A model generated the notes under the pieces. It saw only the letters and a list, made by a program, of their open reading frames with translations, had not been told where the DNA came from and searched no databases. Below are positions 2,011 to 58,405 of a stretch of DNA of 64,000 nt, in pieces (within the stretch, counting starts at the first letter, position 1; every line of letters begins with the position of its first letter). The position numbers were made by a program, and so were the translations under genes. The stretch spans positions 7,709,001 to 7,773,000 of the forward strand of contig JARWIR010000010.1 of assembly GCA_029959085.1 (NCBI GenBank). The letters run 5' to 3'. Origin of the DNA: Nemophila menziesii (lineage: Eukaryota > Streptophyta > Magnoliopsida > Boraginales > Hydrophyllaceae).

Positions 2011-3550
2011 TGATGTCTCCCTAATTGTTCTTATTTTCGACCCTTGGGAGACATCATTTTTTGATGTTTAAATGAATATTTTGATAGACTTTTGAGTTAA
2101 AAATGCAATAATCCGGAATTCCTATTTTATTTCTAGTATTTTTGATTTATTAAACTTTTGCGCGTAATCTTGTGTATTTTAGTGAAAAGTTTGTAGGTTT
2201 TGAATATTATCTAGGAATGGAATCCGAGAAGAGAGTCAAAGATCGTGATATGGAGTCAAAGCTTGAAGATAATCCCGAAAGAATTTTATTTTGGAGCTGC
2301 AAAACTGGAAAACAGGCCAAAGATTGCTAAATTCAAGGCACTTACGAGTTGATTTAGCCTCTGACCTTTGAAGAGAATATGTTCCTTATCGAGTTACGGA
2401 AATTTAGCAAGTGATTTCAGGTCAATCGGAGTTATAACGAATCAGCTAGAGCTGTTTTAGGGGAGCTGGTGCAGCAGTTACGGGATTTTGGGCTTAGAAA
2501 ATGGGCTTGGACTTTTAATTAGTGATTTAATCTTAGGTCCAAGCCCTAATCCGTTTTTCCTCTTATAAAAGGAGTTTTGGACTTCTATTTTTCATACAAT
2601 TCACTTTTTACAAGATTACACATCAGAGAGAAGCAACAGAAGGAAGAAAGAATAAGCTGCAAGAGGTGGAGAGGGTCTATATCTCCGTTCTCAGCCATTC
2701 GAATTCCGGAAATTAGGTTTTCTTTATTTTTAATTTTGTAATACATTATGAATTCCATTTCAATTAATTTAGTTTTCTTATTAATTAGTATGAGCTAATT
2801 CCATTATAGTACTTGAGATTGCTTTATGGGTGAATCCCAATTCTATTGAATTTCTATGTCTGAATTATGGTTTGTGTTAAATTAAATTAAATTGGGTCTT
2901 TTACTCTTTTCGATAAATTGAGATTATTTACTGTTTTTTGGAGTAGCTAACTAAGAACAGGTGTTAGTATCTAAGCTATTCCACATATGTGGCGTGTGAT
3001 CATCCTGACGGAGGGTTTAGGTACGGATTTATTTATTCAATCTAAAATAGAAGCTATTGATTCTGAAGAACTTAGCTAATTTTAGGGCCAATGTGGTAAT
3101 TAACTTAAACATCTAAAAGTGGATCATATTTACCCTGACGGGACTAGTGACACTCTAGGATAGCCTTATAGTCCACCCTGACGGGGGTATAAGGAATTTA
3201 GAATCCCGACCATTGTAATTGACCAATTTAACCCTTAAACAGCATAGGTTTCGAAATAGGATTAGGAGGATCCCTTGCGTTCTTAAGTGCTACTTTCTCA
3301 TATTTGCGTTTCACATTCATTTACTTGCGTTTTAATATTTAATTGCATTTTCCATTTAGTCTTTCATTACTTAGAAATAATAAAAACAAACAATCAATCA
3401 TTATATCTTTATTTGCTTCCCTAAGTGCAACCATTCATTATTCGATAAGCATTATAGTTAACCAATCCGTCCCTGCGAACGATCATAGAATCACTTATTA
3501 CTACTTGGGACAACCGTACACTTGCGGTTGTTAGAACACACAAAGGACCA
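2011..3550 (+). repeat. 3' LTR of element C
   Basis: Begins TGATGTCTCC directly after the PPT and ends ...GGACCA at the LINE junction. At about 1540 bp it matches the family's usual length. A TATA box (TATAAAAGG) lies near 2565. After it the first ATG is at 2748, opening a 13-codon frame that ends at a GTATGA donor at 2788. The right end diverges from its relatives after 3528, so the exact end is approximate. The adjacent CCGTA would be one half of a TSD. Confidence 0.8.
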
Positions 3551-19251: not shown

Positions 19252-22200
19252 TCAAGATTTGAGAATATCGAATCCCCAACAACGAGCAACGCTATGAACG
19301 TCAACAAATCTCCTCTTAATGCCCTTCTTAGGCCTAATCTCTATCACCTTAGCTGAAACCACTTTAGTGACGATGAATGGTCCCATCCACGGGTCTTTGT
19401 AACTTCGTGGCCTATTTTCTGGTTTGTGGGCTTTACATAAAACTTCATGGCTGACCCCAAACTCAATGTTTGGCTCAGTATCCACATGCTTTTCACGGAT
19501 CTTCTCTTTAGGGTCTTTGTGATGTGAAAGGTTGTGGATGATAGGAATGGCGAGATCTGACTTCCTTGGTTTCTTACCCCAGACATAGAATGTCTCGGAT
19601 ACGTTTTTAGCTTGAAGGGTAATCGTCCCTTCTTGGAAGTTGATTATGCTTTGGCTAGTGGCCATGAAAGGCCTTCCAAGTATGATTGGAACCTGCTTAT
19701 CTGCATCGAAATCAAGAATAACAAAGTCGGTAGGGGTGGTTATATTACCTGATTGGACAAGAACGTCCTCCACTGTTCCTCATGTCTTGGTAACTAAGTT
19801 GTCAGCAAACTGCAACTTCACTGGAGCTTTCTCTGATTTTTGAAGTCCAAGTGTCTCGAACACGGACTTTAGCATAATATTCAAACCTGAACCCACATCG
19901 TACATGGCTTTTACCTTAAGCATACCATATATTTGAATAGGAAGGTTGAGACTTCCAGGATCTTTGAGCTTCAATGGTAACTCTTTCTCTTCTCTTCTTG
20001 AGACTCTTACAGTCTCTCTCTTGGTTTCTACACTCACTTCCTTCTCAGGAATAACTTGCGTAAAAACTTGTTGCGGTGTAAGCCTTTTCTTCGCAATCTC
20101 AACCATTTGGGCGTTGATATTTTCAGGAGTGTAAGCCTCTACAAATGTCTTGAGTTCAATGTCACCTTTCGGATTTGTATCAGGAATGGTTGATGACACT
20201 GTTTGAACAATTGGTGGCGTTTCCACCTTCTCTTCTTCTTTCTTTTCTTGCACAGCAGGTGCAACTTCAACTCTTGGTTCTTTTGAGGCTTTTTTTCCTC
20301 TTTCTCTTTAGCACTTCCAGCTTGTAACTCCATAACCGATCTAATCTCTTCTTGCATATCTCTCAGAAGCTGTATAAATTCAGATTTTTCTGAATCTTTG
20401 TCCTCATCCTCTTCAGAACAGTTAGAGTCCACGGGGCTAGACTTGGTTGGTTCTTCTTCGGTACTCAGAACTACCACGACACTTTTGGCAGCATGCGGTA
20501 CTTCCTTATTTTCTTCAATCTCAAGGCAAATAACCTTGCAAGCTTCGAACCCAACATTGGCATCACCTCCTTCTATAGCCTTCAATTCTTTTGTTCCATA
20601 ATATTTGTAAGAACTTTATTTATTTGTTCTACTTGCGTACTGGTGGGTCCTAGGGTGTTAGAAAATAATGAGATAAATAAAAGGAACCACAATACCGCAA
20701 GTGTACGGTTGTCCAAGTAATATCCAATAAATCGGGTTTCGTTCTCAGGGACGGATTAGGTTCAATCCAAATATTAATCAAGTAGTAAGAATAATTGTTT
20801 AACAGAAAAATAAAATAAAATATTTTTGTTTGGTTTTCTAAATTAAAAAGATGCAAATAAAATAAAGACTAAAAGTATATTAACTAGAAATAAATAAAGC
20901 AAATAAAAGGACTAACTTCAGATATGAGAGATACTTGAGTCTCGCAAGGAATCTACCTAATCAATATAATCTATGTTATGTTTAAGGGTAGAATTGGTAT
21001 TATAATATTAGTCAGGACTCTAATATCTCCTAGCCCCCTTTCGCGTGGACTTAGAAGCTATCCTAAAGTACTATAAACCCCTGTATGAGCGAATATGCCT
21101 CTTCGGATGATATGAATTTACCTCTTTGGCTATGTAATTAGTTAAGCATGTCGGTCAATAACGGACATTACACGGGTATTACCTAAGTCTCTATTCAAAA
21201 CCCCATGTCGGATGATCACTTCGCCACTAAAGTGAATAGCCCAAATACTAAAAGCTATTTCTAGTTGTTCCTAAAAGAAATAGTAATGAAAACAAAGTAA
21301 TATCCAATATATAAAACTCAATTCAATTTAAATAATAACAATCCCAAATTTCAAACATAGATTAATTAATTAAGGTTCATCCATTAATGCGATTCTCAAG
21401 TATATGGAAATTTAGCTCATAATAAAATTAAAGACTGAAAATAAATAAAAGGAATTCATATTCAAATACAAAAGATAAAATGATAACCTAAAGGGTAGGG
21501 ATGACTGTTGATGGAAGAACATGATTCTCCCAGCTCTAGTTTCTCCTCGGCTTCTTGCTCTGACTTGAAAACCTTAATCCTCTTGTGTAATTATTTGAAG
21601 TGTGTATAAAAGAGGAGGCTAAAGGGTGTATATATAGGTGTTAGGAAGCCTTAATTCGTTTTTACTTGGAGGGGAAGACAAGTTAAGAACTCTTTAATTC
21701 GCAGCCGTAAAATCTAGAAAAGTAAGATTTTGCTGCTGATTTGTTTTGGTCATATCTCCTTCAATACTTATCCGTTTGATGCGTTACAATAGTCGAAATC
21801 ACTTGTCTTGGAAAGTTCTATCCATAGGTACAGACCATTCGCTCAAATTCCTAGACAATATTAAGTTATGAGCTCGTCTTTGAACGTGGCTGGAATTTCA
21901 GATTTATTTGGCAGCTTTATCTTTTCCTTCTTTGCATATATCTTTCCATAATCTTTTTATTTCCATGTATATCTCTTTCCTTTAATTATTAGACTTGAAT
22001 TGGTCTCTAATTAATTACCATATATCTTTTAAAGCTTCACAATAAATAAATTATTAAACCGCATATGCTTTAAAAATTAATGAATCATTAAATCAAGACT
22101 AGAAATAAGAAAGTGCACTCTAAAATTAGAAACTTGAATAAAATACTTCCTAACACACTAAAAATACTCTAAGACTTTAATTATCACTTCTCCTCCTTGT

Positions 22201-31554: not shown

Positions 31555-31800
31555 GGGCCCGGCATACCGGTGCTGCTGTTGTTCAACTTTGGGACCTCTC
31601 GGCAATGAACACGTGGCGATACCCGTGGCCACGAGTTTTTCTCTGGCCGGCATACCAGAGATTTCTCCTGGCATACCGGTGGTATAATTTCTCGATATTG
31701 GACCTCTTGGACGCGTGGCTTACCCCGTGGGCTCGGGTTTTCTACTCGCCGGTATACCGGAAATATCGGCCGGCATACCGGCGAGGCAGTCTGAATATAT
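31555..31800. repeat. GC-rich palindromic domain of element B
   Basis: Alternates GGCCGGCATACC(A/G)G units (about 31558, 31634, 31669, 31747 and 31769) with a CACGTGG...CCCGTGG...CACGAG module (about 31608 and 31712). Related to the F version but not identical. Confidence 0.8.
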
Positions 31801-34800
31801 CCAAAACTCGCGTTTTTCCTCCCGAACTCGATTTTTCTAACACCTAAACATCAAAAACACTCATACCTTTCTCAAATATGCAATATCAACTAAAAACAAC
31901 TAAACTAAACTCAATCTAAAAACGTAAAAAGCATAAAAACATAAAAAAAATTGCGGGTTGTCTCCCGTACAACACTTTTATTTAACGTCTTTCAAAGTTA
32001 GACGCGTTACCTCTATCAAGATTTGCGAATATAGCCTCCCCAACAACGAGTTAGGCTATAAAAGTCAACTAATCTGCGCTTGATCCCCTTCTTGGGTCGA
32101 ACTTCTATCACCTTGGCTGAAACAACCTTAGTGACAATGAATGGTCCTATCCACGAGTCTTTGAAACTACGTGGCCTATTTTCACGTTTGTGAGCTTTCC
32201 ATAGAACTTCATGGCCAACCCCAAACTCAATGTTTGGCTCAGTATCCACAGGTTTTAACTGGATCTTCTCAGGAGGGACTTTGTGATGTGAAAGGCTGTG
32301 GATGACATGAACGGTGGGATCTAACTTCCTTGGTTTCTTACCCAAGACATAAAAGGTCTCGGATATGTTATTAGCATGAAGGGTAATGGTCCCTTCTTGG
32401 AAGTTGATGACACTTTGACTTATGGCCATGAAAGGTCGTCCAAGTATGATTAGAACCTGCTTATCTGCATCAAACTCAAGTATAACAAAGTCAGTAGGGA
32501 TGGCGATACTACCTGCTCGGACTAGAACGTCCTCCACTGTTCCCCATGTCTTGGTAACTGAGTTGTCAGTGAACTGCAACTTCACTGGAGCTTTATCTGA
32601 TTTCTGAAGTCCAAGTCTCTTGAACATGGACTTAGGCATAAGATTCACACCAGAACCCACATCGTACATAGCTTTCACCTTGAGCATACCATTTATTTGA
32701 ATAGGAAGGTTAAAACTTCCCGGATCTTTGAGTTTCATTGGCAGCTCTCATTCACTTCTTCTTGAGAATCTCAGGTTCTCTCTTGGGACTTCTACACTCG
32801 CTTCTTTCTCAGGAATAACTTGCGTAAAAACTTGTTGCGGTGTAAGCCCTTTCTTCGCAATCTCAAGCATTTGGGCGTTGATATTTTCAGGGGTGTACGC
32901 CTCTACAAATGTCTTGAGTTCAGTATCATCCTTTTGATTTGTATCAGGAATAGTTGGTGACACTGTTTGAACAACAGGTGGCGGTTCCACCTTCTCTTCC
33001 TCTTTCTCTTCTTGCACAGCAGGTGCAACTTCAACTTCAACTCTTGGTTCCTCCTTTGAGGCTTCTTCCTCTTTCTCTTTAGCCAGCTCAGCTTGAAACT
33101 CCATAACCGATCTAATCTCCTCTTGCATATCCTTCAGAAGCTGTATAAATTCGGATTTTTCTGTATCGTCCTCCACATCACTCTCAGAACAGTTAGATTC
33201 CGCGGGGCTAGACTTGGTTGGTTCTTCTTCGGTACTCGGAACCTCCACGGCACTAACGGCAGCATATGGTACTTCCTTCTTTTCTTCTTCAATTTCAAGG
33301 CAAATAGCCTTACAAGCTTCGAACCCAACATTGTCATCACCTCCTTTGATAGCCTTCAATTCTTTTTGTTCCATTATATTTGTTAGAACCTTGGTCATTT
33401 GTTCTACTTGAGTACCTAAAATCTGAATTGAGGCATCTTGTCTTTGTAACTTTTGGCCCTGAGTGTTCATTGTCGTGGTCAAACGGTCAAAGAGTTTTGC
33501 TAATTGTTGATTATCCATAGTTCCCTCTTGAGGATACGGTGGTAAAGCTTTATGATCTAATGAATCGGCATAGTCATCTTGAACAGGTTGTTGAGGAGGA
33601 GCATGTCTATTCTGATATTGATTTTGATACTGACCTCTTGGTTGGAAAAAGTTGTTCTGGGAACGCGGTGGATAATGACCAGGATTAATGACCCCCTGAG
33701 GATTTGAATACTGCATACCCGGATGGTTTCGGTTACCGAATTGATAACCTCCTCGGTTGGATATGAAATAAACAGATTGTGGATTTCCTTCGCACTCTTC
33801 CCAAGTATGATTATTAACCCCACATTGTTGACAACCTTGTGCTTCTTGTACTACATTTGTTGCGGCTAAATTTCTCTGCATCTCTAGCTTAAGCTCTTTG
33901 ATTTGATTCTCTAATGCGGATATTTGAGCTGAGTTCGCAGTTTCTGCATCTAAACGAAGCGTACCTCGGGTTTTTGTAACAGGAGCTCGCGAAGATGGCC
34001 AACTCCTTTCTTGTTCAATAATATTTTCCAAAACCTCGGTAGCTTCAGCAGGATCCATGGACACGAAATTCCCTTTCCAAATGTTATCCACCTTCAGTCT
34101 ACCTACTTCGTTAATACCTTCATAAAATATAGCTAACTGTAGAGATGGGGTATAACCATGGAGAAGACATCTAGCTAACTTCTGTTGAAACCTTGTCCAT
34201 GCTTCTCCATCTTCTTGACAAAACTTTGCAAGCTCGCTTTGGTCTTTGAGTCTCATGCTCTTCGGATAAAATCGGTTAAAGAAAGCGGCTTGAAGTTCTG
34301 TCCATGAATTAATTGTCCCTGTTGGTTGCCTATCTAGCCACTCACTAGCTCTACCGGTCAGAAAGAACGAAAACATGTGACAATACATTTGCTCGCGTGT
34401 AATGCCTGGAGTAACATAAGCATCATAAATCTGCATAAACTTCTGAGTCGCTCTTACCGGATCTTGAATTGTTGTACCACTATAGAGTCCAAAACTTGGA
34501 AACTGACTGAGCATACCCGGATCGGGTCGAAATTTGATGTTTTGGATCTCCGGAGGACGCTAACCTATCGGTTGAACATGAAACGGCACTCGGAGGCCAG
34601 GAAGGTCTTGTTCAACTCGGTTCTGATTAACATTGTTTTTCCCGTTACCTCTTCCTAGTGGATGTTGTCCTCTAGGTGGAGGTGGTCCTCCTGGTGGAAC
34701 GGAATGGTAATCCTCCAGGTGGGATCACAAGTGGTGGATTTAACTGCTCTTGTACGCCTGCTGATGTCTCCTCATTTGTGATAGATTTATATTAAGATGA

Positions 34801-35318
34801 GACATCATTTTTAGTGTTTTAGAAGTCAATAATGTCGATTTTCTTGAGTTTTAGTGCACTTTCCTGTTTTGTGTCTTGATTTGTAGAAATAATGTTTTTA
34901 GAGCATATTGGGTTTAATTGTTTATTTAGTGTGTAGCTTTAAAGATAATTATGGAGTTTAATTAGAGTCCAAGTCAAAGACAACAACTTATGGAAGGAGA
35001 TATGCATGGTAATTGGAGATAAGGAAAGAATTGCTAAAAAGATGGAAAAGGAAAAGCTGCCTAAATCTGGGATTCTGCAAAGATAGGCGTTTTTACCTAA
35101 TAAAGAGGCCGAATTTGGTAGATTACTCCTAAAGGGCGTAGGAAATTCTGTTGCGATTCTTTTGGTATCTTGTGGAGCAAAATCGGACCAATAATAAAGA
35201 AGTTATGACCAAAACAACGCAGCAGTGTTTATCTTTATTTCCATACGAATTTGAGTTGGGCTAGAAGTCCATTACCTTAACTCTTCCTCAAGAAAACGAA
35301 TTAGGTCTTCTAAACACC

Positions 35319-35326
35319 TATAAATA
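35319..35326 (+). promoter_or_regulatory. TATA box of the 5' LTR of element A
   Basis: TATAAATA within CACCTATAAATACACCC, conserved in nearly all LTRs of the window. No ATG occurs between it and 35413, so an mRNA started about 30 nt downstream would have its first AUG at 35413. The copy in the 3' LTR is at 43666. Confidence 0.8.
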
Positions 35327-35412
35327 CACCCTTATATCACTTGTAAATCATCCTTGCCTCATAGTAATTAGTTCTTAAGGTTTTATTCTTCCAGTTTATT
35401 GTAGAGAGCAAG

Positions 35413-35452
35413 ATGATGTCTTTTATTATTTCTTTTAGTTTATTTCCTTCAG
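35413..35452 (+). CDS. Predicted LTR-encoded first coding exon of gag (element A)
   Basis: ATG at 35413 (with a second at 35416 and A at -3) opens 13 codons and ends in CAG|GTATGA at 35452/35453. Without splicing, translation stops at TAA three codons later. Joined to the T-rich acceptor at 36447/36448, the single leftover base completes a codon and enters the gag frame in phase. The downstream acceptor at 36455/36456 is also in phase. The gag frame itself has no ATG before 36549, although its conserved coding similarity begins about 30 codons earlier, which this start would explain. The same 40-nt ATG-to-donor spacing occurs in nine LTRs. This is a prediction, without transcript evidence. 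Confidence 0.65.
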
Positions 35453-36447
35453 GTATGAACTAAACCTCCCATAGCTTGGGTTTTGCATATGTATAATCTA
35501 TGAATTCTAATTCTTCTATCTAAGTTTCTTTGGGAATTATATGTTTTAATCTGATATTAGCTTCTTACTTTATATTTGCTTATGTGTTTTGATTTAATGT
35601 CTTTCCTAGAATTGATCACTTTAGGATTGTTTTAAGAGTAGTTAGATGTTCTCCTTGACAGGGTGTTTAACTATTGAACCACCACATAATGTCTAGTGTC
35701 GATAGCAGTTCTGACAAAACATACTTCTAACTAGATAGTCATTAAGGTTTGTTTTAACCACAGTATCACCAAGACTTGCAGTATTTGCTTAGGGCCTTAG
35801 TGGCGTTTGATAACCCTATTTTAAATCACTTCTTGGTTGTGACGTAGCCCCCTTAGTCGCTCTCAAGGTCTAAGGTAGTGGAATTTAGAATCCTGACTAA
35901 GTATTACCAAGAGCTAATATTCTCCCTTATGAACTAGATCTATAGATAGAATTAGAAGGATTAGTGCATACTAGCAAAACCTAAGCTATACTTCTCATCT
36001 CATATTCTTAATCTTTTACTTTATTGTCTTTATTTTCTTAGTTTTAATTTAGTTTTAATTCATAAATTCGAAAAACCAAATATTTATTTACTGTCTTCTA
36101 GTTATTTACTTTTACTCGTTATCTGTTCCTACGCGTTTAACACACTTAAGTCCCTGAGAACGAACTCTACTTATCATTAAAACTTGCATACGTCCTGTAA
36201 TACTTGCAGTACTGTGCCTGTCTAGGGTGAGAGTGCATAGTTTTCCATACTTAAATTGATCTTATTTTTATCACACCCTAGGCGACACCAAGTTTTTGGC
36301 GCCGCTGCCGGGGACTTGTGTCTCGTTAGCGTGTGGGTTATCTATTTCGAGTTTTAGTTTTTAATTAGTTTTTACTTTTCAGTTTTAGTTTAGTTTTAGT
36401 TTTTAGTTTTCCAGATTTACGCTTGGGTTTGCTTTAGTCTTTTTCAG
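35453..36447 (+). other. Predicted leader intron spanning LTR end and PBS (element A)
   Basis: GT at 35453 (CAG|GTATGA) and AG at 36447 (TTTAGTCTTTTTCAG|G) are good plant splice-site matches. The 995-nt intron would remove the rest of the LTR and the PBS, so a spliced RNA could make Gag but not be reverse-transcribed, while unspliced RNA would be the genome. The acceptor is kept in B (about 44749), F (about 23827), E (about 46764) and G (about 56540). Confidence 0.55.
36297..36313 (+). promoter_or_regulatory. tRNA-Asp primer-binding site of element A
   Basis: TGGCGCCGCTGCCGGGG, 6 nt inside the 5' LTR, is complementary to the 3' end of plant tRNA-Asp (from memory) with one mismatch. tRNA-Asp priming is typical of Athila/Tat-lineage Ty3/Gypsy elements. 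Confidence 0.9.
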
Positions 36448-36455
36448 GTTTCACA

Positions 36456-39266
36456 GTGTTTAATTCTTGGCCTCCCTTACCGGAGCCTGAGAGGAGCTTC
36501 AGAGCTTATAACAAAAGAATTCGTAAGGAAAGAGCCTCGAGAAGAACTATGGCAGACATTCAAGACAATGATCCGGAGTTAGTTTACTTTGCACCAGGAG
36601 GACCTCCTGCGTTTGTTCCACCTGGTGTACAACTGCCAGTAGGAGAAGGTAATGGGCAGAATAATCAACAAAACCGAGTTGAACAAGATCTACCTGGCCT
36701 TAACATACCATTCCATGTTCAACCCATCGGTTACCGCCCTCCTGAGATTCCGAATATCAAATTTAGACCCGATCCGGGTATGCTTAGTCAATTTCAAAGT
36801 TTCGGACTCTATGCTGGTACTGCGATTCAAGATCCGGTAAAAGCGATTCAGAAGTTTATGCAGACTTGTGATGCCTACATTACTCCTGGCATTACACGCG
36901 AGCAACTGTATTGTCATATGTTTTCGTTTTTCTTGACCGGAAGAGCTAGCGATTGGCTAGAAAGACAACCACATGGAACCATTCACTCTTGGAGAGAGCT
37001 TCAAGCCGCGTTCTTTAACCGATTTTATCCAAAGAGCATGAGACTTAAAGATCAAACCGAGCTTGCAAGATTTTCTCAAGAAGATGGAGAAACAGTGGGA
37101 GAAGCATGGACAAGGTTTCAACAAAAATTAGCTAGATGCCCGCTCCATGGTTATACACCTGCTCTACAACTTGCTATATTCTATGAAGGTCTTGATGACA
37201 AGGGTAGAGACAAGGTGGATAACATTGGAAAGGGTAATTTTGTGTCCATGAATCACAATGAAGCTTCCGAGGTGTTAGAAAATATTATGGAACAAGAAAG
37301 AAGTTGGCCTTCAACGCGAGCTTCTGCAGCAAAGACCCGAGGAACGCTTCGTTTAGATGCAGAAACCGCGAACTCAGCTCAAATATCCTCGTTAGAAAAT
37401 CAAATCAAGGAGCTGAGAATCGCGATGGAGAAGAATTTAGCTGCTACAAAGGTAGTTCAAGAGGCACAAGGTTGTCAACAATGTGGAGTTAACGATCATT
37501 CATGGGAAGAGTGCGAATCAAATCCGCAATCTGTTTACTTCATATCTAACCGATGGGGCAACCGCAACCATCCGGGTATGCAGTATTCAAATCCACAAGG
37601 GGCCGCTAATCCTAGTCAATATCAATCGCGACCCCAGAACAACTCTTACCAACAGAGAGGTCAGTACCAAAACCAATATCAGAATCGACCTACTCCTCCA
37701 CAACAACCTGCTCAAGACGCCTATACCGATACTTTAGATCAAAAAGCTTTACCTCAGTATCCGCAAGAAGGATCTATGGACAATACACAGATAGTACAAG
37801 CTCTAGAACGTTTGAACACAACTGTAAACGCTCAAGAGGAAAAAGTCCGAGGACACGATGCCATACTTCAGATGCTAAGTACTCAATTAGCCCAAATAAA
37901 CAAGCATCTAACAGAACAAAAGGAGGTAAAGGCAATCGAAGGAGGTGAAAACAATGTTGGGTTCGAAGCTTGCAAGGCTATATGCCTTGAAATCGAAAAA
38001 GAAAAGGAGGAAGCACCACATGCTGCCATTAGTGCCGTGGAAGTTCCCAGTATTGAAGAAGAGCCAACCGAGTCTAACCCCGAGGAGTCCGACTGTCTAG
38101 AAGTTTATCATCTGGAAAGCGATGAAGAGAGAGACGAGTTCATAGAGCTACTGAAAAAGGTGCAAGAGGAGATGCGATCGATGGTAGAGTATGCAGCGGA
38201 GTTAGCGAGAGAGAAAGAGGAAGAAGCCTCAAAAGAAGAATCGAAAGAAGAAGTGGCACCTGCTGTGCTAAAGGAGAAAGAAGAAGAGAAGGTGGAATCG
38301 CCACCTAGTGTTCAACCAGTGTCATCAACCATTCCTGATACAATTCCTAAAGATGACACTGTTCTCAAGACATTTGTAGAGGCGTACCAACCTGAAAATA
38401 TCAACGCCCAGATGCTTGAGATTGCAAAGAGAGGACTTACACCGCAACAAGTTTTTACGCAAGTTATTCCTGAGAAAGAGGCGAGTGTAGAGATCCCGAG
38501 AGATAACCTGAGGGTTTCAAGAAGAAGTGAGAAAGAGCTACCTACTAAGCTTAAAGATCCGGGAAGTTTCAACCTTCCTATTCAATTACATGGTAGGCTC
38601 AAAGTGAAAGCAATGTACGATGTGGGTTCTGGTGTGAATCTTATGCCTAAGTCCGTGTTCGAGAGACTTGGACTTCAAAAATCAGAGAAAACTCCAGTGA
38701 AGTTGCAGTTTGCTGACAACTCAGTGAAGAGGACATGGGGAACAGTGGAGGACGTCTTAGTCCGTGCAGGTAATATCGCCATCCCTACTGACTTTGTTAT
38801 TCTTGAGTTTGATGCAGATAAGCAGGTTCCGATCATACTTGGACGGCCTTTCATGGCCACAAGTCAAAGTGTGATCAACTTCCAAGATGGGACCATCACC
38901 CTTCATGCTAAAAATGTATCCGAAACCTTCTATGTCTTGGGTAAGAAACCGAGGAAGTTGGATCCCACCGTACCTATCATCCACAGCCTTTCACATTACA
39001 AAGTCCCTCCTGAGGAGATCCACTTAAAACCTGTGGATACTGAGCCAAACATTGAGTTTGGGGTTGGCCATGAAGTCCTATGGAAAGCCCACAAACGCGA
39101 GAATAGGCCACGAAGTTTCAAAGACTCGTGGATGGGACCATTCATTGTCACTAAGGTCGTTTCAGCCAAGGTGATAGAAATTCGCCCCAAAACTGGGGTC
39201 AAGCGCAGATTAGTTGACGTTCATAGCCTTACTCGTTGTTGGGGAGGCTATATTCGCAAATCTTGA
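36456..39266 (+). CDS. Gag-protease-integrase-tail polyprotein of element A
   Basis: A 936-codon open frame. Capsid-like Retrotrans_gag domain at residues about 120-265; CCHC knuckle C340, C343, H348, C353; Q/N-rich then acidic coiled linker (400-690); aspartic protease with DVGSG at 722-726 and ILGRPFM at 794-800; then an integrase C-terminal-like tail (about 865-936) with GHEVLWKAHK, SWMGPFIVTKV and CWGGYI. Canonical proteases have D-T/S-G; here the position after Asp is Val, and element G has DLGA. In a full Ty3/Gypsy element about 1000 residues of RT, RNase H and integrase core lie between protease and tail; none is present. Gag should package RNA in cytoplasmic particles. Residues are counted from the GTG at 36456, which is not a credible start: the first in-frame ATG is 36549, and the LTR exon at 35413 is the proposed start. 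Confidence 0.93.
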   Translation: MFNSWPPLPEPERSFRAYNKRIRKERASRRTMADIQDNDPELVYFAPGGPPAFVPPGVQLPVGEGNGQNNQQNRVEQDLPGLNIPFHVQPIGYRPPEIPNIKFRPDPGMLSQFQSFGLYAGTAIQDPVKAIQKFMQTCDAYITPGITREQLYCHMFSFFLTGRASDWLERQPHGTIHSWRELQAAFFNRFYPKSMRLKDQTELARFSQEDGETVGEAWTRFQQKLARCPLHGYTPALQLAIFYEGLDDKGRDKVDNIGKGNFVSMNHNEASEVLENIMEQERSWPSTRASAAKTRGTLRLDAETANSAQISSLENQIKELRIAMEKNLAATKVVQEAQGCQQCGVNDHSWEECESNPQSVYFISNRWGNRNHPGMQYSNPQGAANPSQYQSRPQNNSYQQRGQYQNQYQNRPTPPQQPAQDAYTDTLDQKALPQYPQEGSMDNTQIVQALERLNTTVNAQEEKVRGHDAILQMLSTQLAQINKHLTEQKEVKAIEGGENNVGFEACKAICLEIEKEKEEAPHAAISAVEVPSIEEEPTESNPEESDCLEVYHLESDEERDEFIELLKKVQEEMRSMVEYAAELAREKEEEASKEESKEEVAPAVLKEKEEEKVESPPSVQPVSSTIPDTIPKDDTVLKTFVEAYQPENINAQMLEIAKRGLTPQQVFTQVIPEKEASVEIPRDNLRVSRRSEKELPTKLKDPGSFNLPIQLHGRLKVKAMYDVGSGVNLMPKSVFERLGLQKSEKTPVKLQFADNSVKRTWGTVEDVLVRAGNIAIPTDFVILEFDADKQVPIILGRPFMATSQSVINFQDGTITLHAKNVSETFYVLGKKPRKLDPTVPIIHSLSHYKVPPEEIHLKPVDTEPNIEFGVGHEVLWKAHKRENRPRSFKDSWMGPFIVTKVVSAKVIEIRPKTGVKRRLVDVHSLTRCWGGYIRKS

Positions 39267-39315
39267 CAGAGGTAACACGTCTAACTTTGAAAGACGTTAA
39301 ACAAAAGTGCTGTTC

Positions 39316-39327
39316 GGGAGACAACCC
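39316..39327 (+). other. GGGAGACAACCC motif after gag (element A)
   Basis: TTCGGG-AGACAA-CCCGAA (39313-39330) forms a 6-bp stem about 50 nt after the gag stop. The core is shared with B and F. The A version has extra pairs (TTC/GAA) that differ from B (C/G), so pairing is partly kept. Confidence 0.65.
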
Positions 39328-39486
39328 GAAGTTTTTTTTATGTTTTCATGTCTTTTACATTCTTAGTTTAAGTTTATTTTAGTTGTTTTTAGTTGATAAT
39401 GCATATTTGAGAAAGGTATTAGTGTTTTTGGTGTGTAGGAATCAGAGAAATCAAGTTAGGGAACGCGAGGAAAATTTTTGGAGCGC

Positions 39487-39875
39487 AAGAAAGCACCCCG
39501 CGGACTACCCTCACGGACTACCCCATGGTCCGCAGGGATGGTCCGCGAGGTCAAAACCCGTACCACGGGTAGCTACCGCGGGTTTAGGTCAGAAACACGA
39601 AAAAATTCCACGGACCACCCCGCGGTGCACCGTGCCATGGTCCGCGCCCCAGAAACCCGTACCACGGGTTGACTACCACGGGTATTTTGACGGAGCAGCT
39701 ACAGAAGCCGCGGTGTACCCCGCGGTACACCGGACCCTAGTCCGCGAGCCAAAAAACCCGTACCACGGGGTCCTACCACGGGTTTAAGTCAGTAAGCAAA
39801 AATTTTCGAGCATCAGATGTCACGGACTACCCCGCGGTGCACCCCATGGTCCGCAGGGGTAGTCCGCAGCGCCGC
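39487..39875. repeat. GC-rich palindromic tandem domain of element A
   Basis: The module ACCCGTACCACGGG(T/G) occurs at 39556-39570, 39655-39669 and 39756-39770, a period of about 100 bp. Between the copies lie CCCCGCGG, GCGGTGCACC, CCATGGTCCGCG and GCGGTACACCG palindromes. A fourth, partial unit ends near 39870. The domain stands out in an AT-rich element and could fold into serial hairpins. Open frames across it (39383-39787, for example) arise from the scarcity of stops in GC-rich repeats. Confidence 0.9.
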
Positions 39876-40317
39876 CAGAGGAGAGAGAAAGTTACGGGAT
39901 TGAGTTATAAAGGAGGTATTGAAGCTATTATTCCGAATTTATTAAACCTTAACCCTCTCTTTCTACTGCACAACTCTCCTAACTCCATTGAAGCTCATCA
40001 AAACCTTCACCAATCACCAAAACACTACCCAATCATCAAGGAAAACACATCAAACCTTCTCTCCACATCATTACAAGAGAGAATCAAGCTACCAATCATC
40101 ACCAAATTCATTCAAATTGAAGAATCAAAGAGCCAAATTTCACAAATTCATCACACAATTTCTAAAAATCCTAGCCTACCCATTACAAATCATCCTCACC
40201 CACATAGAGATTCATCACCAATTCACCCATCCTAGGACAAATCAAGCTTGTTCATCCATTAATTCAAGAGTTAAATTTCAAGGGTTGCTAAAGCTTTGAG
40301 TTGGGGGTTAATTGAAG
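39876..40317 (+). other. CA-rich leader of ORF2 in element A
   Basis: No convincing gene. Rich in ATCAA/ACCAA and CATCA words. Ends with a PPT-like tract TTTGAGTTGGGGGTT (40295-40309) just 8 nt before the ORF2 ATG. Two CA-rich overlapping frames (39837-40299) have low-complexity products and no counterparts in sister copies. Confidence 0.6.
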
Positions 40318-41511: not shown

Positions 41512-41516
41512 GCCTC
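41499..41516 (+). other. Hairpin around the ORF2 stop codon (element A)
   Basis: CGAGGC-AATAA-GCCTCG places the TAA stop in the loop of a 6-bp stem. The equivalents in F (about 17114-17131) and E (about 25825-25842) keep the stem with TAG in the loop. Confidence 0.6.
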
Positions 41517-41606
41517 GAGAGTATGTTCTCTTTCTTCCTTACCATTTCTGTAAATATGTCTATCTGCTAATTTTAATTTCTGTTTTCGAGTTTTTTTTTT
41601 TTTTTC

Positions 41607-41626
41607 GAGTCGTGGGGACACGGCTC
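41607..41626 (+). other. GNRA-type hairpin (element A)
   Basis: GAGTCGTG-GGGA-CACGGCTC. One pair is a T-G wobble relative to the perfect stems in C and G. Precedes an internal PPT-like tract by a few bases. Confidence 0.72.
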
Positions 41627-42324
41627 ATTTTTGAGTTGGGGGTGTGGGGATTCGTTGTCTCTCATCTCCATTTTTCTGTTTTTGGGTGAAATTAAAATTT
41701 TTGATGCATGGGAATTAGATGTAGAGTGTGTTTAATAGCTTGAAAGCATGAGCTCAGTAGATTAATGATAGTAAGTGATATGTTTATGAGCTATGTATGT
41801 GTATGCTCTGAGTATTTGCAGGAAAACACACGTTGATAGTAAAGAAAAGATTAGTGAGCAATGCGATAGAAAGTATGTTCGATCTCAGGGAACCTTGAAA
41901 GTGTGTAGGCCGTGAGATCCAAGCTAGTTGAAAAACCATTTGATGAGAGTGCTAAAGGTAAGAAATTTTCTAAATTACATAGTGTAGAAAGTGATCAAGG
42001 CGGTTCTTTCATATTTTGAAGCCTTTGAAGCCTTTTTATACCTTCTCACCTTGTGATTTTTGAGTTTAAAAGTTATATCCTTCTTAGCCCCTTCTAGCCT
42101 TTCTAAAGCCTTTTTATTGAAACATATTATAAGCCATATCCTTTAGATTTTAGGACTTTTCCATATGACCCGCACTCGAATCGCGATGCTTAGACAGTTG
42201 TTTTAGAGCTTGAGTTTGGGGTGGTGGGTCCACCATTATGGGAGTTATTATGTTGGGATTTTTGAGCTTATTATTGTGCTTTGTGCTTTATATTGAGGAT
42301 GCTTTACAACATTGTATTGTAACC

Positions 42325-42509
42325 CTTTGCCGGGGTAATAGTGAATGAAAAAGAAGCTTCGAGCTAATTTTGCCAACAAGGGCATTAAAAGAGAAAATAT
42401 ATATATGAGAAAATTAGCATGATATCTCAACATTAAAAGAGAGTCATAGCTATAGAAAAGAGAATTGATTTGAAAAGAAAAGAAAATATATATATTCGGA
42501 CCGGCAAAG
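42325..42509 (+). repeat. Long inverted repeat CTTTGCCGG...CCGGCAAAG (element A)
   Basis: Arms at 42325-42333 and 42501-42509 flank a purine-rich core with GAAAAG runs. Element C keeps both arms (1254 and 1437) around a different core. Degenerate arms are visible in B, E, F and G. Confidence 0.7.
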
Positions 42510-53728: not shown

Positions 53729-56512
53729 TCATTTTTTCACATAACCTCCCCAGCAGTGAGTGAGGTTATCAACGTTTGCTACACGGAATTTGCATCCCTT
53801 AGCTTTTATTACCACCAATTGATTTGAAATAACCCTTGTGACCATGAACGGTCCTTGCCAAGAACTCTTGGCTTCGCACGTTTTTGGAGGAGGATTAGGC
53901 TTCTTCAATGCAACCTCTTCGCCTACTCTGAACCCCCTTTTCTTTCTCTCTTTCTTAGGTTCTTTGGGAACCTTCATAGCTCGCCTCTTCTCTTTTATCT
54001 TTGCACCGTCAAGGAACCACAAATCTGGTTGTTTCTGGTCAAGGTGTGGGTTTTCCTTAGGATCTTAATAGAGAAACCACGGATTTGGTGGTTTCTTTCT
54101 GAGCTCTCTTTCCTCCATTCCTTCGGTTTCCACAACCTTAGTTGGCTCCTGTTCAATCACATCAATCCGGAAGCAATCCTCCTTGGAATCCGGAAACTTC
54201 ATTGGCTTAAACACGTTAAATTTCACCTCCTCGTCTTGGATACGCATAATCATTTCACCGTTCTCTACATCAATCAAAGTACGCCCCGTGGCTAGGAATG
54301 GTCTTCCCAAAATAATGGGGACATTCCTATCCACGTCGTAATCAAGTATAACAAAATCAACATGAAAGATTAACGTACCGAGGACATCTTCTAGTCTTCC
54401 CTCTGGATGTACGAGGGATCTGTCAGCCATTTGCAAAACCATAGAGGTGGGTTTTGCGTTTCCTATCTTCAACTTTTCAAACACTGATTTGGGCATGAGA
54501 TTAATACTTGCTCCCAAATCACACAAAGCTTTCCCTTGCCACTTAGCACCAATGGAAATCGGGATCGTAAAACTTCAAGGATCAAGTAATTTGGGTGGCA
54601 ACTTACTTTGGCATATAGCACTACACTCTTCAGGCAAACCCACCATTTCATTCTCAAGATACTGACGCTTGCTGGTGATAGCTCTTTTTAAGAATTTCAT
54701 GTATTTCGGTACACCTTTGATAGCCTCTAAGAAAGGTATATTAATGTTAAGCTTACCCACCATGGTCATGAATCTCTGATATTCCGCAGTATCTCCTTTC
54801 TTCTGAACTCTTGAAGGGAATGGTGGAGGAGGACGGACTTCTATAGCATCTTTCTTTTTCGGATTTTCCGGAATCTCCTCCACTTCAATTATTTCAGGTT
54901 CATCTTCTTTCTCTTCCACCTCTTTTACCGGTTTCTCTTTCACAGTTGTTTCTTTTTCTTTCATAACGGGAAAAGGTGGGGGTGGAAGATTCTTACCACT
55001 TCTAAGAGAGATCGCGTTACATTCTTCATATGGTTTAGGTTTTTCAGTATCACTCGGTAATTGTCCCTGTCGGCGCTGATTTAATTGCTTTTCCATCTGA
55101 GCTATTTGATTTTCCATCAATTTAAGTGTTGTGGCCGTGGATTGTTGAATTGTGATTAGTGTTGTCAAGGTTTGTTGCATATCTAATGCACCCTCTTGAG
55201 GTTGAGCAGGTAGAGCTTTCTGGTTCATGGTGTCGGCATAAGCATCTTGAGGAGGTTGTCTTTGAGCTTGATTTCCGTAAGCTTGTCCACCTTGGTAGTT
55301 GTTCTAAGGTATTGGTTGAAAATTATTGCCTTGGGGGCGTTGTTGATATGCATGTTGCGGATTAGCGGCCCCATTTAGATTTGAATATTGGAAACCCGGA
55401 TGGTTTCTATTCGGTTGATAACCTTGACCACATGCGTTATAATTTCCTCGGTTGGATACAAACATTACGGATTCTGGATTATTTTGACAGGTCTCCCAAT
55501 CATGATCTTCTGTACCGCATTTAGAACACCCATAAATTTCTTGTGTAACATTAACTTCTGCTCTTTTACTTGCAACACTCTTTGTAACGGCTATAGTAAG
55601 TTGTTTCAGTTGTTGCTCGAGCTTGTTTTCCATGGCGGTGACTTTTTCTTCAATTGATGCAGTGTTTCCACCTCGAACAGGTGTTCGTACAGTGTTCCAA
55701 CCAAGCTCATTTGTTACCGTTCTATTCAAAATAATCTTCGCATGAACTGGTTGTACCTGTAGGAATCCACCACCACAAAGTAAATCTAGATCCTTTCTTG
55801 AAGAGCCATCAAGTCCTCGGTAAAATATCTTCATCTGTTGAACTTCTGTGAGGCCATAATCAGGGACTCTTCTTAAGCAAATCTGAAATCTCTTCCAACT
55901 TCTACCCAAAGTCTCGTCTTGATCTTGTTTGAATGAAGTTAGTTCAACTTGCGCATCCAATCTCATATTCGTTGGGTAGTATCTATCGAAGAACGCGGTT
56001 TGTAATGCGTCCCATGTTGTAATTGTTCCGGGTTCTTGAGAATCATGCCACTCACTTGCTCCATCAATAACAAAGTATCTAAAATTAGCAAAATACATTT
56101 GCTCTTTAGTTACTCCTTGCGTAATATAAGAATCGCAAATTTGCATGAACTTCTGTACAGCACGGATCAGATCTTCGCTAGGTGCTCCTCGGTAATTGCC
56201 ATAACTTTGAAACTGAGATAGCATACCAGGATCGGGTCTGTATCTCGCGACATTACTATCTGCAGGGCCAATTCCGAGGGCAGGAGCTCGAAACAGAGCT
56301 TATTCAGGGCCATTGATGAACCACGGATCATTATTCTGAGCAACGGGAGCAGCTGGAGGGTTGAGTTGTTGTTGATTGTCAATTGGGTCTTCAGCCATTG
56401 TTTCTTTTGCTAATTGCTCCTCTAACTCTTTTGATTTAGTGTATCTCTTTCTTTTGTTTGCTTCACGAACTAGGTTTTCGGGATTTGCAAGAATCACGAT
56501 ATCTTCACGCAT
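53729..56512 (-). pseudogene. Gag-protease-integrase-tail frame of element G, four stops
   Basis: A single 928-codon frame from ATG at 56512 to the stop at 53729, broken only by in-frame stops at 56300, 55304 (TAG), 54575 (TGA, in the DPGSF motif) and 54065 (TAA). The N-terminal arm is basic. Capsid-like gag lies at about 55780-56230; the CCHC knuckle CSKC-X4-H-X4-C near 55492-55533; a proline-rich/acidic linker; protease with the usual plant CDLGASINLMP (about 54490-54526) and IILGRPFLATG; and an integrase C-terminal-like tail (FRVGEEVALKKP, SSWQGPFMVTRV, CWGGYV). Length and layout equal those of element A, showing that the direct protease-tail fusion is ancestral to both LTR classes. Confidence 0.9.
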
Positions 56513-56657: not shown

Positions 56658-58405
56658 TGGTGGTTCCTAGGGTGTTATAAAATAAAGTGCAAAAGTAAAG
56701 GAACCACTTAACTGCAAGTGTACGGTTGTCCCAAGTAATATATGATAAACAAGTTCGTTCTCAGGGACGGATTAGGTTCAACCCAAATATCAATCAAGTA
56801 GTAGGAATAATTGCTAAACAGAAAAATAAAAGATAGAATTTTTGTTTGGTTTTTGGAAATTAATAGATGCAAAATAAAGTAAAGACTAAAATTAAATTAA
56901 CAGAAAGGAAATAAAGCAAATAAACGACTAAATTCAGATAGGAGAGATACTTGATCCTCGCAGAGGAATCCACTTAATCAATATAATCTATGCTATGTTT
57001 AAGGGTAGAATTGGAATTATAATATTAGTCGGGACTCTAATATCTCCCAGCCCCCTGTCGGGTGGACCTAGAAGCTATCCTAAAGTATCATAAACACCTG
57101 TATGGTCGAATATGGCTTTTCGGATGATAAGATTTTACCTCTTTGGCTATGTAACTAGTTAAGCCGGTCGGTCAATAACGGACATTACACGGGTATTACC
57201 TAGATCTGTATTCAAACCCCCTTGTCGGATGATCACTTCGCCACTAAGGTGAATAGCCCAAATACTAACAGCTAATTCTAGTTGTTCCTAAAAGAATTAG
57301 TAATGAAAACAAAGTAATATCCAATATATAAAACTCAATCCTATTTAAATCTAAATAATCTCAAATTCAAGACATAGATTAATTAATTAAGGTTCATCCC
57401 TTTAATGCGATTCTCAAGTATAAAGAAATTTAGCTCATGATGAAATTAAAAACTAACATAAAATAAAAGTAATTCATGTTCAAACACAAAAGATAAATGA
57501 AAAACCTAAAGGGTTGAATGACTATTGTTGGAAGAACAGGATTCCTCCAGCTTCTAGCTTCTTCTCTCCTTCGTGCTCTGACTTGAAAACCTTAAGCCTC
57601 TTGTTTTATTCTCTGAAGTGTGTGAAAGTAGGAGGTTAAGGGGTGTATTTATAGGTGTTGGAGGACCCTAGGTCGAATTTGCTTGGAGTGGAAGACAAGT
57701 CAAGGACTCTCAAATTCGTAGCTCTAAAAGATATGATTTGGTCATATCTTTTTCAATACTTATCCGTTTGAGAAGTTCCAATATATGAAACTGCTTGTCT
57801 TGGAAAGAGCTTTCTATTGGTGCAGACCACTCTCCCAGAATCCAAGCCAATCTTTTATTATGATTTAATCTCTAAAACGTGGCTGGATTTTCAGATTTCA
57901 AAAGGCAACTTTATCTTTTCCTCCTTTGAATAAATCTTTCCTAAATCTTCTTATTTCCATGTAAATCTCCTTTCCTTTCATCTTTATCTTGACTTGGTCT
58001 CTAAGTAATTACCATTTATCTCTTAAAGCTTCACATTAAATAAATAATTAAACCGCATATGCTTAAAAAGAATAAATCAATAAATCAATAAATCGAAATA
58101 GGAAAGTGTACTCTAAAAATAGAAACTCGACTCAAAATCATTTCCTAACACTCTAAAATACACTAAGACTTTATTCTCACTTTTTCTCCTTGGATTGGTC
58201 TTTCATGAAATTCAAGAACCAATTAACTTTGCATTAAAAATAGTCAAATTTAGGCACAAAAGCTCAGATTCTGCAAATAGTTAATTTCCAAGGGGAGAAA
58301 GTTCAATATGATCAAATAAGCCTAAAAGTCTATAAAACAAGTCATTTATTCACCTAAAAGGATGTCTCCAAGGGGCTAATAATTAGAACAAATCGGGAGA
58401 CATCA
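56658..58405 (-). repeat. 5' LTR of element G
   Basis: 1748 bp, TGGTGGTTCC to GGGAGACATCA. TATA box near 57650 (reverse strand). The mini-exon position carries an ATG and open codons, but the GTA of the donor is missing. Correspondingly, gag of G has its own ATG right after the acceptor. Confidence 0.93.

Follow-up and report, generated by a model that had tools for sequence, protein, structure and literature searches.

The conserved unit in the LTRs described here, from Nemophila menziesii, is a short ORF (sORF) ahead of a giant hairpin, rather than an exon ending in a splice donor. The LTRs have in common the start codon, the frame, the TAA stop, and the distance from that stop to a helix; a donor and a 40-nt spacing are not shared. 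Judged from the sequence and by analogy with plant viruses, it is likely that the LTR carries a leader of the ribosome-shunt type, whose sORF may, in the subfamily of element A, also donate its AUG by splicing. The elements probably make Gag by shunting over this leader, because the sORF-before-hairpin layout equals that of shunting plant viruses.

An sORF and a large hairpin in the LTRs of the window

The window is a 64,000-nt stretch of contig JARWIR010000010.1 (positions 7,709,001 to 7,773,000); its features are collected in Table 1. The original prediction held that a 40-nt exon in the LTR supplies the start codon of gag by an in-frame splice across the PBS. In element A the letters are as it described: the ATG at 35413 opens 13 codons up to CAG/GTATGA (the slash marks the putative splice boundary), the unspliced frame reaches TAA three codons past the donor, TTTTTCAG/G is present at 36447/36448 and would join in phase with the gag frame, and that frame is open 5' of its first ATG at 36549. 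All nine of the listed ATG-plus-40-nt sites were found in the window, and GT is kept in nine of nine rather than eight. Seven of these nine LTRs belong to one LTR family and two of the seven are the identical LTRs of element A, so the sites are not independent.

The 40-nt spacing with its donor did not hold up as a general LTR pattern, as other LTRs of the window had been omitted that are without the GT, the ATG, or the region. Three on the minus strand (sORFs starting at 57477, 49902, and 21459) have the ATG and 13 codons with no GT, the first 39 nt being followed by ATGAGCTAA. Both ATG and GT are lost in LTR 10745-9189 (minus), and the sORF region is deleted from LTR 45611-44895 (minus). The donor can be absent while the sORF, stop, and stem persist. 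Element D (called G originally; LTR 58405-56657, minus) does lack the donor and has its gag ATG 18 nt past the acceptor, as stated. Acceptors, described as kept in A, B, E, F, and G, were confirmed in A, B, and E, and D has a comparable motif; the acceptor of E is out of phase by 1 nt. Special conservation of the 40 nt was not borne out: within the one LTR family, 43% of all 40-column windows of the alignment are equally or more conserved, as are 27% of gap-poor windows, and the 40 nt are gap-free, like 23% of windows. In element A, the hairpin at 35471-35989 (~520 nt) contains all leader AUGs that are not in the sORF.

The ORFs of element A carry a PF03732 gag and a retroviral-type protease and lie between LTRs with a PBS, which we take to be of the tRNA-Asp type; this fits plant Ty3/gypsy elements (Athila/Tat side). 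A scan for RT, RNaseH, and integrase in two ORFs of A and seven of D found no RT or integrase domain. Elements A and D look non-autonomous, and the Athila/Tat-side lineage name is therefore a lead only. Caulimoviridae have no LTRs, a Met-tRNA primer, and a movement protein. Membership of element A in that family was rejected: identical LTRs flank it, its PBS is of another type, and no movement protein was found in the nine ORFs scanned.

Table 1. Positions of leader and gag features in the window
Feature	Position	Strand	Remarks
5' LTR of element A	34762..36290	+	identical 3' LTR at 43109-44637
TATA box TATAAATA	35319..35326	+	94 nt 5' of sORF ATG, no intervening ATG
sORF of element A, 16 codons, MMSFIISFSLFPSGMN then stop	35413..35463	+	first AUG past TATA box; first 40 nt are the proposed "exon 1"
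GTATGA, candidate splice donor within sORF	35453..35458	+	AG/GT in A subfamily only, among sampled loci
Basal helix of A, 5' arm	35471..35486	+	begins 7 nt past sORF stop
Basal helix of A, 3' arm	35974..35989	+	16-bp helix with 35471-35486
Pyrimidine-rich ACTTCTCATCTCAT, candidate landing site	35990..36003	+	adjoins stem
AUG-free stretch of A	35990..36548	+	spans U5 and PBS, from the stem base up to the first ATG of gag itself
PBS TGGCGCCGCTGCCGGGGA	36297..36314	+	element A
Acceptor-like TTTTTCAG	36440..36447	+	similar motifs precede gag also in donor-less loci
gag N-terminal extension, 34 codons without AUG	36447..36548	+	coding-like in A subfamily
gag-protease ORF from first own ATG	36549..39266	+	PF03732, PF13650
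sORF of element D, 15 codons, no GT donor	57430..57477	-	5' LTR 58405-56657; 3' LTR copy at 49855-49902
Hairpin of element D	56947..57421	-	basal arms 57421-57414 / 56954-56947, from 8 nt past sORF stop
gag ATG of element D	56510..56512	-	first AUG past hairpin; 18 nt past acceptor-like motif
sORF of diverged LTR (~2014-3550)	2748..2798	+	TTA/GTATGA
Hairpin of 2748 LTR	2807..3292	+	basal arms 2807-2818 / 3281-3292
sORF of LTR 22424-20641, no donor	21412..21459	-	hairpin next; in this copy an additional ATG separates TATA and sORF

The layout recurs in related LTRs of the genome

The 1.5 Gb genome contains 17,721 exact PBS sites, and 100 related 5' LTRs were chosen by PBS alone, first 60 and then 40 held out. 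With the called TATA box taken as a proxy for the transcript start, the sORF is the first AUG in 48/60 and 32/40 loci; in the first 48 it has 15, 16, 17, or 19 codons. A helix starting within 11 nt of the sORF stop and spanning under 600 nt, in folds begun past the stop, was found in 44/48 and 32/32 sORF loci and in 41/400 shuffled sequences. The sORF and helix thus occur together in 76/100 LTRs (44/60, then 32/40 held out), although these counts are not independent events because the loci share ancestry. The gap from stop to helix is 3-11 nt, mostly 6-8 nt, in the 44 loci, and 5-11 nt in the 32. When folds were begun at the sORF ATG instead, the helix was recovered in 78/80 loci, and a long-range helix of at least 5 bp starting inside the sORF was also present in 63/80; these models therefore do not clearly place the stop in single-stranded RNA. 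A loose pyrimidine pattern follows the stem in 44/44 loci. In 20 of the 100 loci (12/60, 8/40) the first AUG is not that of the sORF; inspected by eye, five of the 12 do have the sORF, but with another ATG ahead of it or with the TATA box called wrongly. Another 4/48 sORF loci fold differently.

The basal helix covaries and AUGs are avoided downstream

Among 13 diverse sequences, 96% of cells in the basal helix are paired, and 6/10 pairs and 26 cells have changed on both sides. The covariation score was reached by 0/1000 shuffles and was the best of 18,120 helix placements. The basal helix is kept as structure and not as sequence, through compensatory changes. For long-range pairing of the first 60 nt (partners at least 300 nt away), the observed level was reached by 0 (A), 0 (2748), and 1 (D5) of 100 shuffles. 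The stability of the whole leader is ordinary (MFE z -2.0 to -0.2). Taken by itself, the longest uninterrupted helix was reached by 0, 5, 11, 23, and 40 of 100 shuffles (A, 2748, D5, 8149, and H, respectively). LTR 8149 has another pairing partner and 4 distal ATGs versus 10 CATs; element H is decayed.

CAT counts served as the comparison for AUG counts. In the distal segment, from helix to PBS, there are 2 AUGs versus 321 CATs in 48 loci and 7 versus 258 in 32 held-out loci, while the hairpin has 365 versus 405 and 220 versus 243, and the 400 nt upstream of the TATA box have 258 versus 187. Within subfamilies, distal AUGs number 1 observed versus 9.0 simulated (A subfamily), 0 versus 4.7, and 0 versus 9.6; the A hairpin is also AUG-poorer than simulated (74 versus 94.6). 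The decayed element E has 4 ATGs in the last 600 nt versus 6.6 expected. Past the PBS, the first AUG opens one of two typical gag starts in 26/60 loci, with at most three open codons before it in 25/26, and in 12/60 it opens a frame under 25 codons that is not gag.

A probable leader of the ribosome-shunt type

According to excerpts of PMC5902531, PMC2241666, and PMC3291615, the plant pararetroviruses CaMV and RTBV (Caulimoviridae) and also RTSV have, like the LTRs here, a 5'-proximal sORF that stops a few nt before a large AUG-containing stem-loop, a helix whose pairing is conserved and not its sequence, and pyrimidine-rich sequence past the stem, which in the LTRs is a loose pattern. In these excerpts the distance from sORF stop to stem is 7 nt in RTBV and 8 nt in RTSV, the bypass in CaMV covers about 480 nt, and the shunt helix needs pairing with its sequence free, a pyrimidine tract following the stem. 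Unlike those leaders, the one described here is part of the LTR of an integrated retrotransposon whose PBS is of the tRNA-Asp type, has gag as the downstream gene, and is a shunt leader by prediction from sequence; its sORF has 15-19 codons versus 6-7 in the excerpts on RTBV and RTSV. Our literature search found no report of a shunt layout in an LTR retrotransposon.

By the layout of CaMV, RTBV, and RTSV, ribosomes loaded at the cap would scan to the sORF and translate it, terminate at the stem, and bypass the ~450-520 nt AUG-containing hairpin. After landing on the pyrimidine-rich sequence of U5, they would scan on across the PBS and initiate at gag. Since a shunt allows both, one unspliced RNA could be genome and Gag mRNA.

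Possible splicing of the sORF in the A subfamily

The original prediction made the spliced RNA the Gag mRNA and the hairpin merely an intron. As a rule for these LTRs this fails because most sORFs (29/48) have no donor; of the others, 10 have AG/GT and 9 have other bases before GT. In the A subfamily it is plausible, as an add-on to the shunt leader resembling that of RTBV. There the splice from 35452 to 36448 over the PBS would make the LTR ATG plus 13 codons exon 1 of gag, joining the sORF AUG to N-extended Gag, and we put this reading, with the splice acting alone or beside a shunt, a little short of an even chance. Eleven of 11 A-subfamily loci examined have [CT]AG/GTATGA after the 40-nt exon; the acceptor is in phase in 9/11 and the frame is open across the join in 8/9. 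No AUG lies within 30 nt of the acceptor-like motif in 10/10 AG/GT, 5/9 other-GT, and 1/29 no-GT sORFs of the first 60 loci, nor in 6/7, 6/7, and 0/18 held-out loci, respectively, although the association of AG/GT with AUG-less acceptors is largely that of one clade. The 34-codon extension is coding-like: 302/642 pairwise codon differences (47%) are synonymous versus 22% of random changes, and A versus B substitutions by codon position are 6:1:7. Among the sampled groups, the A subfamily alone combines AG/GTATGA, mostly no AUG beside the acceptor, and a conserved gag extension.

Against this stand L026, L053, and window element E, which are 1 nt out of phase, the lost donor region of element B, and a stop codon in one of 14 extension sequences. 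In 28/29 donor-less sORF loci a T-rich AG has a first AUG within 30 nt; because the acceptor-like motif is kept where the sORF donor is absent, it may serve some other splice. The splice also leaves unexplained the helix covariation, the donor-less lineages, and the avoidance of AUGs in the would-be intron, including that of the A subfamily.

Published precedents exist for parts of this scheme. In the excerpt of PMC5902531, RTBV sORF1 has a splice donor inside, like the A-subfamily sORF, and its splice to ORF IV supplies the start and first codons from the leader; the RTBV join is to a distal ORF, whereas here it would be to gag, across the PBS, and in the A subfamily only. Diaspora and Calypso/Athila-type elements are, in the part of PMC1142308 available, likewise Ty3/gypsy with a tRNA-Asp PBS 5 bp past the LTR and a long leader. 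That part gives five predicted donors in the Diaspora LTR, acceptors beside the gag start, and an ORF whose first 30 residues are unlike known gags; it states that, as of 2005, an intron 5' of gag was unreported for any LTR retroelement and, unlike the present account, describes neither sORF nor hairpin. BARE, in the excerpt of PMC3735527, resembles the proposal in its separate RNA pools for Gag and genome and its splicing for Gag, and differs in having the intron at the end of gag, two TATA boxes, and membership of the Copia superfamily.

Other explanations of the leader

It is rather unlikely that, in the A subfamily, shunted ribosomes dispense with splicing and start N-extended Gag at the near-cognate GTG at 36456. 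As a start codon GTG is weak, and such a start leaves unexplained why the AG/GT donor was seen only in the A subfamily; the GTG is nevertheless kept in 11/11 A-subfamily loci and in A, B, and E, and element E retains the GTG frame although its acceptor and GTG are 1 nt further apart through an insertion. In the excerpts on the shunting viruses, initiation at non-AUG codons after landing is reported for RTBV (ORF I at AUU) and suspected for RTSV.

A second promoter 3' of the hairpin, giving a short Gag mRNA with an AUG-free leader and leaving the sORF and hairpin with roles in the genomic RNA alone (packaging, dimerisation), would account for the distal AUG avoidance, and BARE offers a precedent with its paired TATA boxes (PMC3735527, in part). 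We consider it improbable: the sORF as first AUG and the 6-8 nt from stop to helix would be unexplained, and inspection by eye revealed no conserved TATA box at the stem base. Chance or a relic, that is, a T-rich leader with a fortuitous open frame and fold, is disfavoured and very improbable: T-rich codons favour open frames, and neither the conservation of the 40 nt nor whole-leader stability is unusual, but held-out recurrence (32/40 versus 41/400 shuffles for the helix), covariation, and strand-specific AUG avoidance argue against it.

Discussion

The sequence layout leads us to a fuller proposal, which is tentative and somewhat doubtful as a whole: a very large plant LTR family would use an sORF-dependent shunt over a ~500-nt hairpin in the LTR for Gag, and one subfamily would also splice the sORF into N-extended Gag, removing the hairpin and PBS. 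If both are true, the 16-codon ORF would decide between genome and Gag-only message, because it would be at once shunt ORF and start exon.

Little is known of how the long AUG-rich leaders of plant LTR retrotransposons are translated, a question raised in 2005 in the Diaspora paper (PMC1142308, in the part available). A pararetrovirus-like shunt leader in integrated LTR elements would be a concrete, testable answer. An origin of the CaMV stem arms from retrotransposon LTRs has been proposed, an idea that the excerpt of PMC2241666 cites with doubt; the layout described here suggests either convergence or an old connection of pararetroviruses with the retrotransposons of plants. The order of sORF, 7 nt, stem, and AUG-free stretch provides a scanning rule for other plant genomes. 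A solo LTR of this kind would bring a promoter, a start codon, an sORF, and a hairpin, and could affect nearby host genes.

A nest of related LTR retrotransposons

Related plant LTR retrotransposons lie nested in the window, and we take their PBS to be of the tRNA-Asp type; as a lead, the lineage may be placed on the Athila or Tat side of plant Ty3/gypsy. In element A, our reference copy, the gag-protease ORF matches PF03732 and PF13650, no RT domain was detected in the two ORFs scanned, and the element appears to be non-autonomous. The seven ORFs scanned in element D yielded gag and protease only, again with no RT domain. By eye, within the 36549-43108 part of element A, the end of the gag-protease ORF contains a stretch resembling an integrase C-terminal tail.

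Positions of elements and leader features in the window
Feature	Position	Strand	Remark
Element A	about 34757-44638
LTRs of element A	34762-36290 and 43109-44637		identical
sORF of element A	35413-35463	+
Basal helix of element A	35471-35486 / 35974-35989
Last leader AUG of element A	35929		within the hairpin
First gag ATG of element A	36549
Second ORF of element A	40312-41511		PF20167 match
Element B	28952-45611	minus	appears split by insertion of element A
5' LTR piece and PBS of element B	45611-44639	minus
Remainder of element B	34699-28952	minus
Element D	49083-58405	minus
ORF with zf-RVT match (PF13966)	4315-5637		LINE-like remnant

A short ORF with a fixed stop is the common feature of the leaders

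The original prediction read the first 40 nt of a short ORF (sORF), opened by the first AUG after the TATA box, as gag exon 1, with a GTATGA donor at 35452 joined to an acceptor at 36448. On re-reading, the letters it gave for 35413-36460 are correct, and all nine of its sites with an ATG and 40-nt spacing are present, with GT in 9/9. The nine fall mostly in one LTR family, and conservation of the 40 nt within it is not exceptional. In three more window LTRs the ATG is retained with its 13 open codons and without GT, one further LTR lacks both ATG and GT, and another has the region deleted. A constant 40-nt exon with a conserved donor is rejected as the common feature. Common to the window copies are an sORF with M(N/S) at its end and a stop at one place, the stop being lost in element E. 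The AUG-free segment between TATA box and sORF carries little or no weight as evidence: in the genome-wide sample its count is zero by construction, as the first ATG is what defines the sORF there, and shuffles of this segment, in the window only, were weak (P 0.08-0.46).

The layout was sampled in the source genome (1.52 Gb, 361 contigs), in which the PBS with an upstream T-run occurs 17,721 times. The first 60 listed PBS places were fetched, blind to sORF and hairpin, followed by a held-out set of 40; all 100 loci are on a single contig, within its first 8.1 Mb. The TSS was inferred from the TATA box, and all findings are DNA-based. In 48/60 loci the ATG nearest downstream of the called TATA box opened an sORF ending ATGA[AG][CT]TAA, with a length of 15, 16, 17 or 19 codons, a TAA stop in 48/48 and A at -3 in 46/48. 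By eye, five of the remaining 12 (L028, L033, L036, L064, L065) do contain the sORF; in them an additional ATG lies upstream or the TATA box was mis-called. Under the same criteria the sORF was found in 32/40 held-out loci, one of which (L089) keeps only the last two codons.

A subgroup of loci (L023, L058, L087, L108) has an 8-codon sORF (MSLL..) and folds less regularly; in L023 and L058 this sORF begins about 30 nt past the TATA box. The subgroup is possibly a variant of the same layout. The sORF peptides are hydrophobic and rich in F, I, L and S (11595, 14847, 24816, 29824, 35413, 43760, 47609 and others), which may be no more than an effect of the T-rich leader, or may point to a function of the peptide.

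A predicted basal helix closes a large hairpin just past the sORF

Folded as a whole, the leader of element A gave a single giant hairpin beginning just past the sORF stop; the shuffle controls below belong to separate folds. Folded from the sORF, nine LTRs have a like helix: A, C1, E, B3 and K of the A group; M22k and the two LTRs of element D (D5, D3) of the D group; and the LTR at 2748. Its 5' arm begins 7-8 nt past the usual stop site, with the partner about 470-520 nt away. Weaker helices in D5, M22k and 2748 extend into the sORF end, the LTR at 8149 paired elsewhere, and H paired weakly. Compared with 100 dinucleotide shuffles each, the leaders were of ordinary overall stability (z -2.0 to -0.2); 0, 5, 11, 23 and 40 shuffles matched the longest uninterrupted helix of A, 2748, D5, 8149 and H, respectively. 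Pairing of the first 60 nt with partners at least 300 nt away was matched by 0, 0, 1, 5 and 55 shuffles in the same order. A search of Rfam gave no match at gathering score in the window.

Among the sampled loci, the first long-range helix began at most 11 nt past the stop and spanned 452-522 nt in 44/48 of the first sample, and the helix was present in 32/32 of the held-out loci (gap 5-11 nt, span 447-523); such a helix occurred in 41/400 shuffles of ten representatives. These folds began past the sORF stop, so that pairing within the sORF was invisible to them. Begun at the sORF ATG instead, folds contained the helix in 78/80 loci, and 63/80 also had a long-range helix of at least 5 bp beginning inside the sORF, so that the stop is not clearly single-stranded in these models. 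sORF and helix occur together in 76/100 loci.

Covariation was assessed in an alignment of 10 representatives of 44 loci (85% identity) and three window sequences; the clustering excluded four of the 48 loci, with spans >600, which stay in the AUG and CAT totals below. A whole-hairpin alignment omitted C2 because of an insertion. The basal stem was the only helix linking both hairpin ends in the RNAalifold consensus. Across its 10 pairs, 96% of cells are paired, with 6 pairs and 26 cells changed on both sides, and it ranks best among 18,120 ten-bp helices tried. The covariation score, paired fraction and double-changed cells were each reached by 0/1000 shuffles, and the number of double-changed pairs by 52/1000; shuffles overstate this significance because the sequences are related. 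Sliding one arm by 1-3 columns, which retains the relatedness, reduced pairing to 22-45%. Taken separately, the A and D groups have a nearly invariant basal helix and thin covariation (double changes in 4/158 and 2/156 pairs).

AUGs are avoided between the hairpin and the PBS

In element A no AUG occurs from the stem base to 36548; dinucleotide shuffles predict 4.2 in 35930-36548 (P 0.0095). The counterpart segment of element D has 0 against 5.5 expected (P 0.001), and the last 600 nt of element E, which is decayed, have 4 against 6.6 (P 0.15). A shows no depletion of CAT and D a mild one (4 vs 7.6 expected, P 0.058); the distal parts of the 2748 and 8149 LTRs contain 0 ATG and 13 CAT, and 4 ATG and 10 CAT, respectively. 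Over the 48 loci of the first sample, AUG:CAT was 365:405 in the hairpin and 2:321 from stem base to PBS, as against 258:187 in the 400 nt preceding the TATA box; the 32 held-out loci gave 220:243 and 7:258 for hairpin and distal segment.

Observed substitutions were placed at random in three subfamilies (10, 9 and 13 loci), giving 9.0, 4.7 and 9.6 distal AUGs, whereas the loci contain 1, 0 and 0 (P 0.002 and 0.014 for the first two; for the third, 0 of 500 simulations went as low). These P values are optimistic because substitutions are shared by descent. CAT had no such deficit. Within the hairpin, AUGs were not deficient in two groups and somewhat so in the A group (74 vs 94.6 expected). 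The A subfamily, too, thus seems to be subject to AUG avoidance, which a pure splice model would not require.

The gag start and a possible splice confined to the A subfamily

Two typical gag starts account for the first AUG after the PBS in 26/60 loci (by eye, MR[RS]R.. in 15 and M[EA]NPRRLEL.. in 11); they stand behind a T-rich AG motif and are preceded by at most three open codons in 25 of the 26. In 12/60, also by eye, the first AUG after the PBS opens a frame of <25 codons. Three loci (L030, L031, L067) have a 6-codon frame (MIK[K]FN) from this AUG, just behind the T-rich AG motif, as a second short frame ahead of gag.

The A subfamily lacks the AUG beside this motif. Of its 11 loci, picked by eye from the first 60, 7 have a gag frame that stays open for exactly 37 codons ahead of its first ATG, and the part past the acceptor resembles the gag start of other lineages by eye (PPLPEPERSFRAYNKR vs PPILSNPESLIRLANRRR). 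The extension was compared in 14 sequences, A and B plus the 12/100 loci fitting an in-phase 102-nt pattern, so that their phase agreement is by selection. Of the 642 pairwise codon differences, 302 are synonymous, where random changes would be so in 22%; variable columns are distributed 8:6:12 by codon position, and a stop occurs in 1/14. The extension is therefore probably translated, judging from these substitutions, and something upstream must start translation.

Splicing from the sORF would supply such a start. Among the sampled loci AG/GTATGA was seen in the A subfamily only, the splice phase fits in 9/11 A-subfamily loci, 8 of which have an open frame across the join. A nearby AUG was absent in 10/10 loci of the first 60 with AG/GT in the sORF, vs 5/9 with other GT and 1/29 without GT; the held-out values were 6/7, 6/7 and 0/18. 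A rival to the splice is a start at the near-cognate GTG at 36456, whose frame element E retains though its acceptor is out of phase.

Relatives in other records

The PBS pattern occurred in six stretches of viral contigs, which look like chance matches, none of them with a gag match; no gag relatives were found in viral contigs, and a protein search returned 0 of 2865 candidates at E<=0.001. The genome-contig search gave one bacterial match (L008) and one record that looks like plant contamination, Streptomyces clavifer BMWJ01000030.1 (L007:1-3922). The LTR in this record has the same PBS and a strong donor-like site, TCTAT/GTAAGTGAGTTAATTTTC, without an open start exon; the sORF-hairpin layout was not found in it, the first frames being 1 and 4 codons with no adjacent helix. 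In the source genome (G000), at least 26 copies of CAGGTATGATTTTTAA lie within a 0.72-Mb stretch of C46 (19.92-20.64 Mb) and at least 6 in C60, perhaps as a tandem gene or repeat array.

Likeness to pararetrovirus shunt leaders

The literature searched, in which subscription papers were thinly covered, gave no report of a plant LTR retrotransposon with a shunt or with an intron ahead of gag, and the portion seen of a 2018 review names LTR retrotransposons for frameshifting only. As described in excerpts of published work (PMC5902531, PMC2241666, PMC3291615), the shunt configuration has a 5'-proximal sORF that ends just ahead of a large stem-loop, at its basal helix; past the stem-loop lies a landing site containing a pyrimidine tract. 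The same excerpts place the sORF stop 7 nt from the stem in RTBV and 8 nt in RTSV, give a bypass of about 480 nt in CaMV, and state that pairing in the shunt helix matters and its sequence does not. A splice donor within RTBV sORF1 fuses sORF1 to ORF IV, according to an excerpt of PMC5902531. The leaders described here, known from DNA alone, closely resemble those of the pararetroviruses in spacing, in size and even in the embedded donor.
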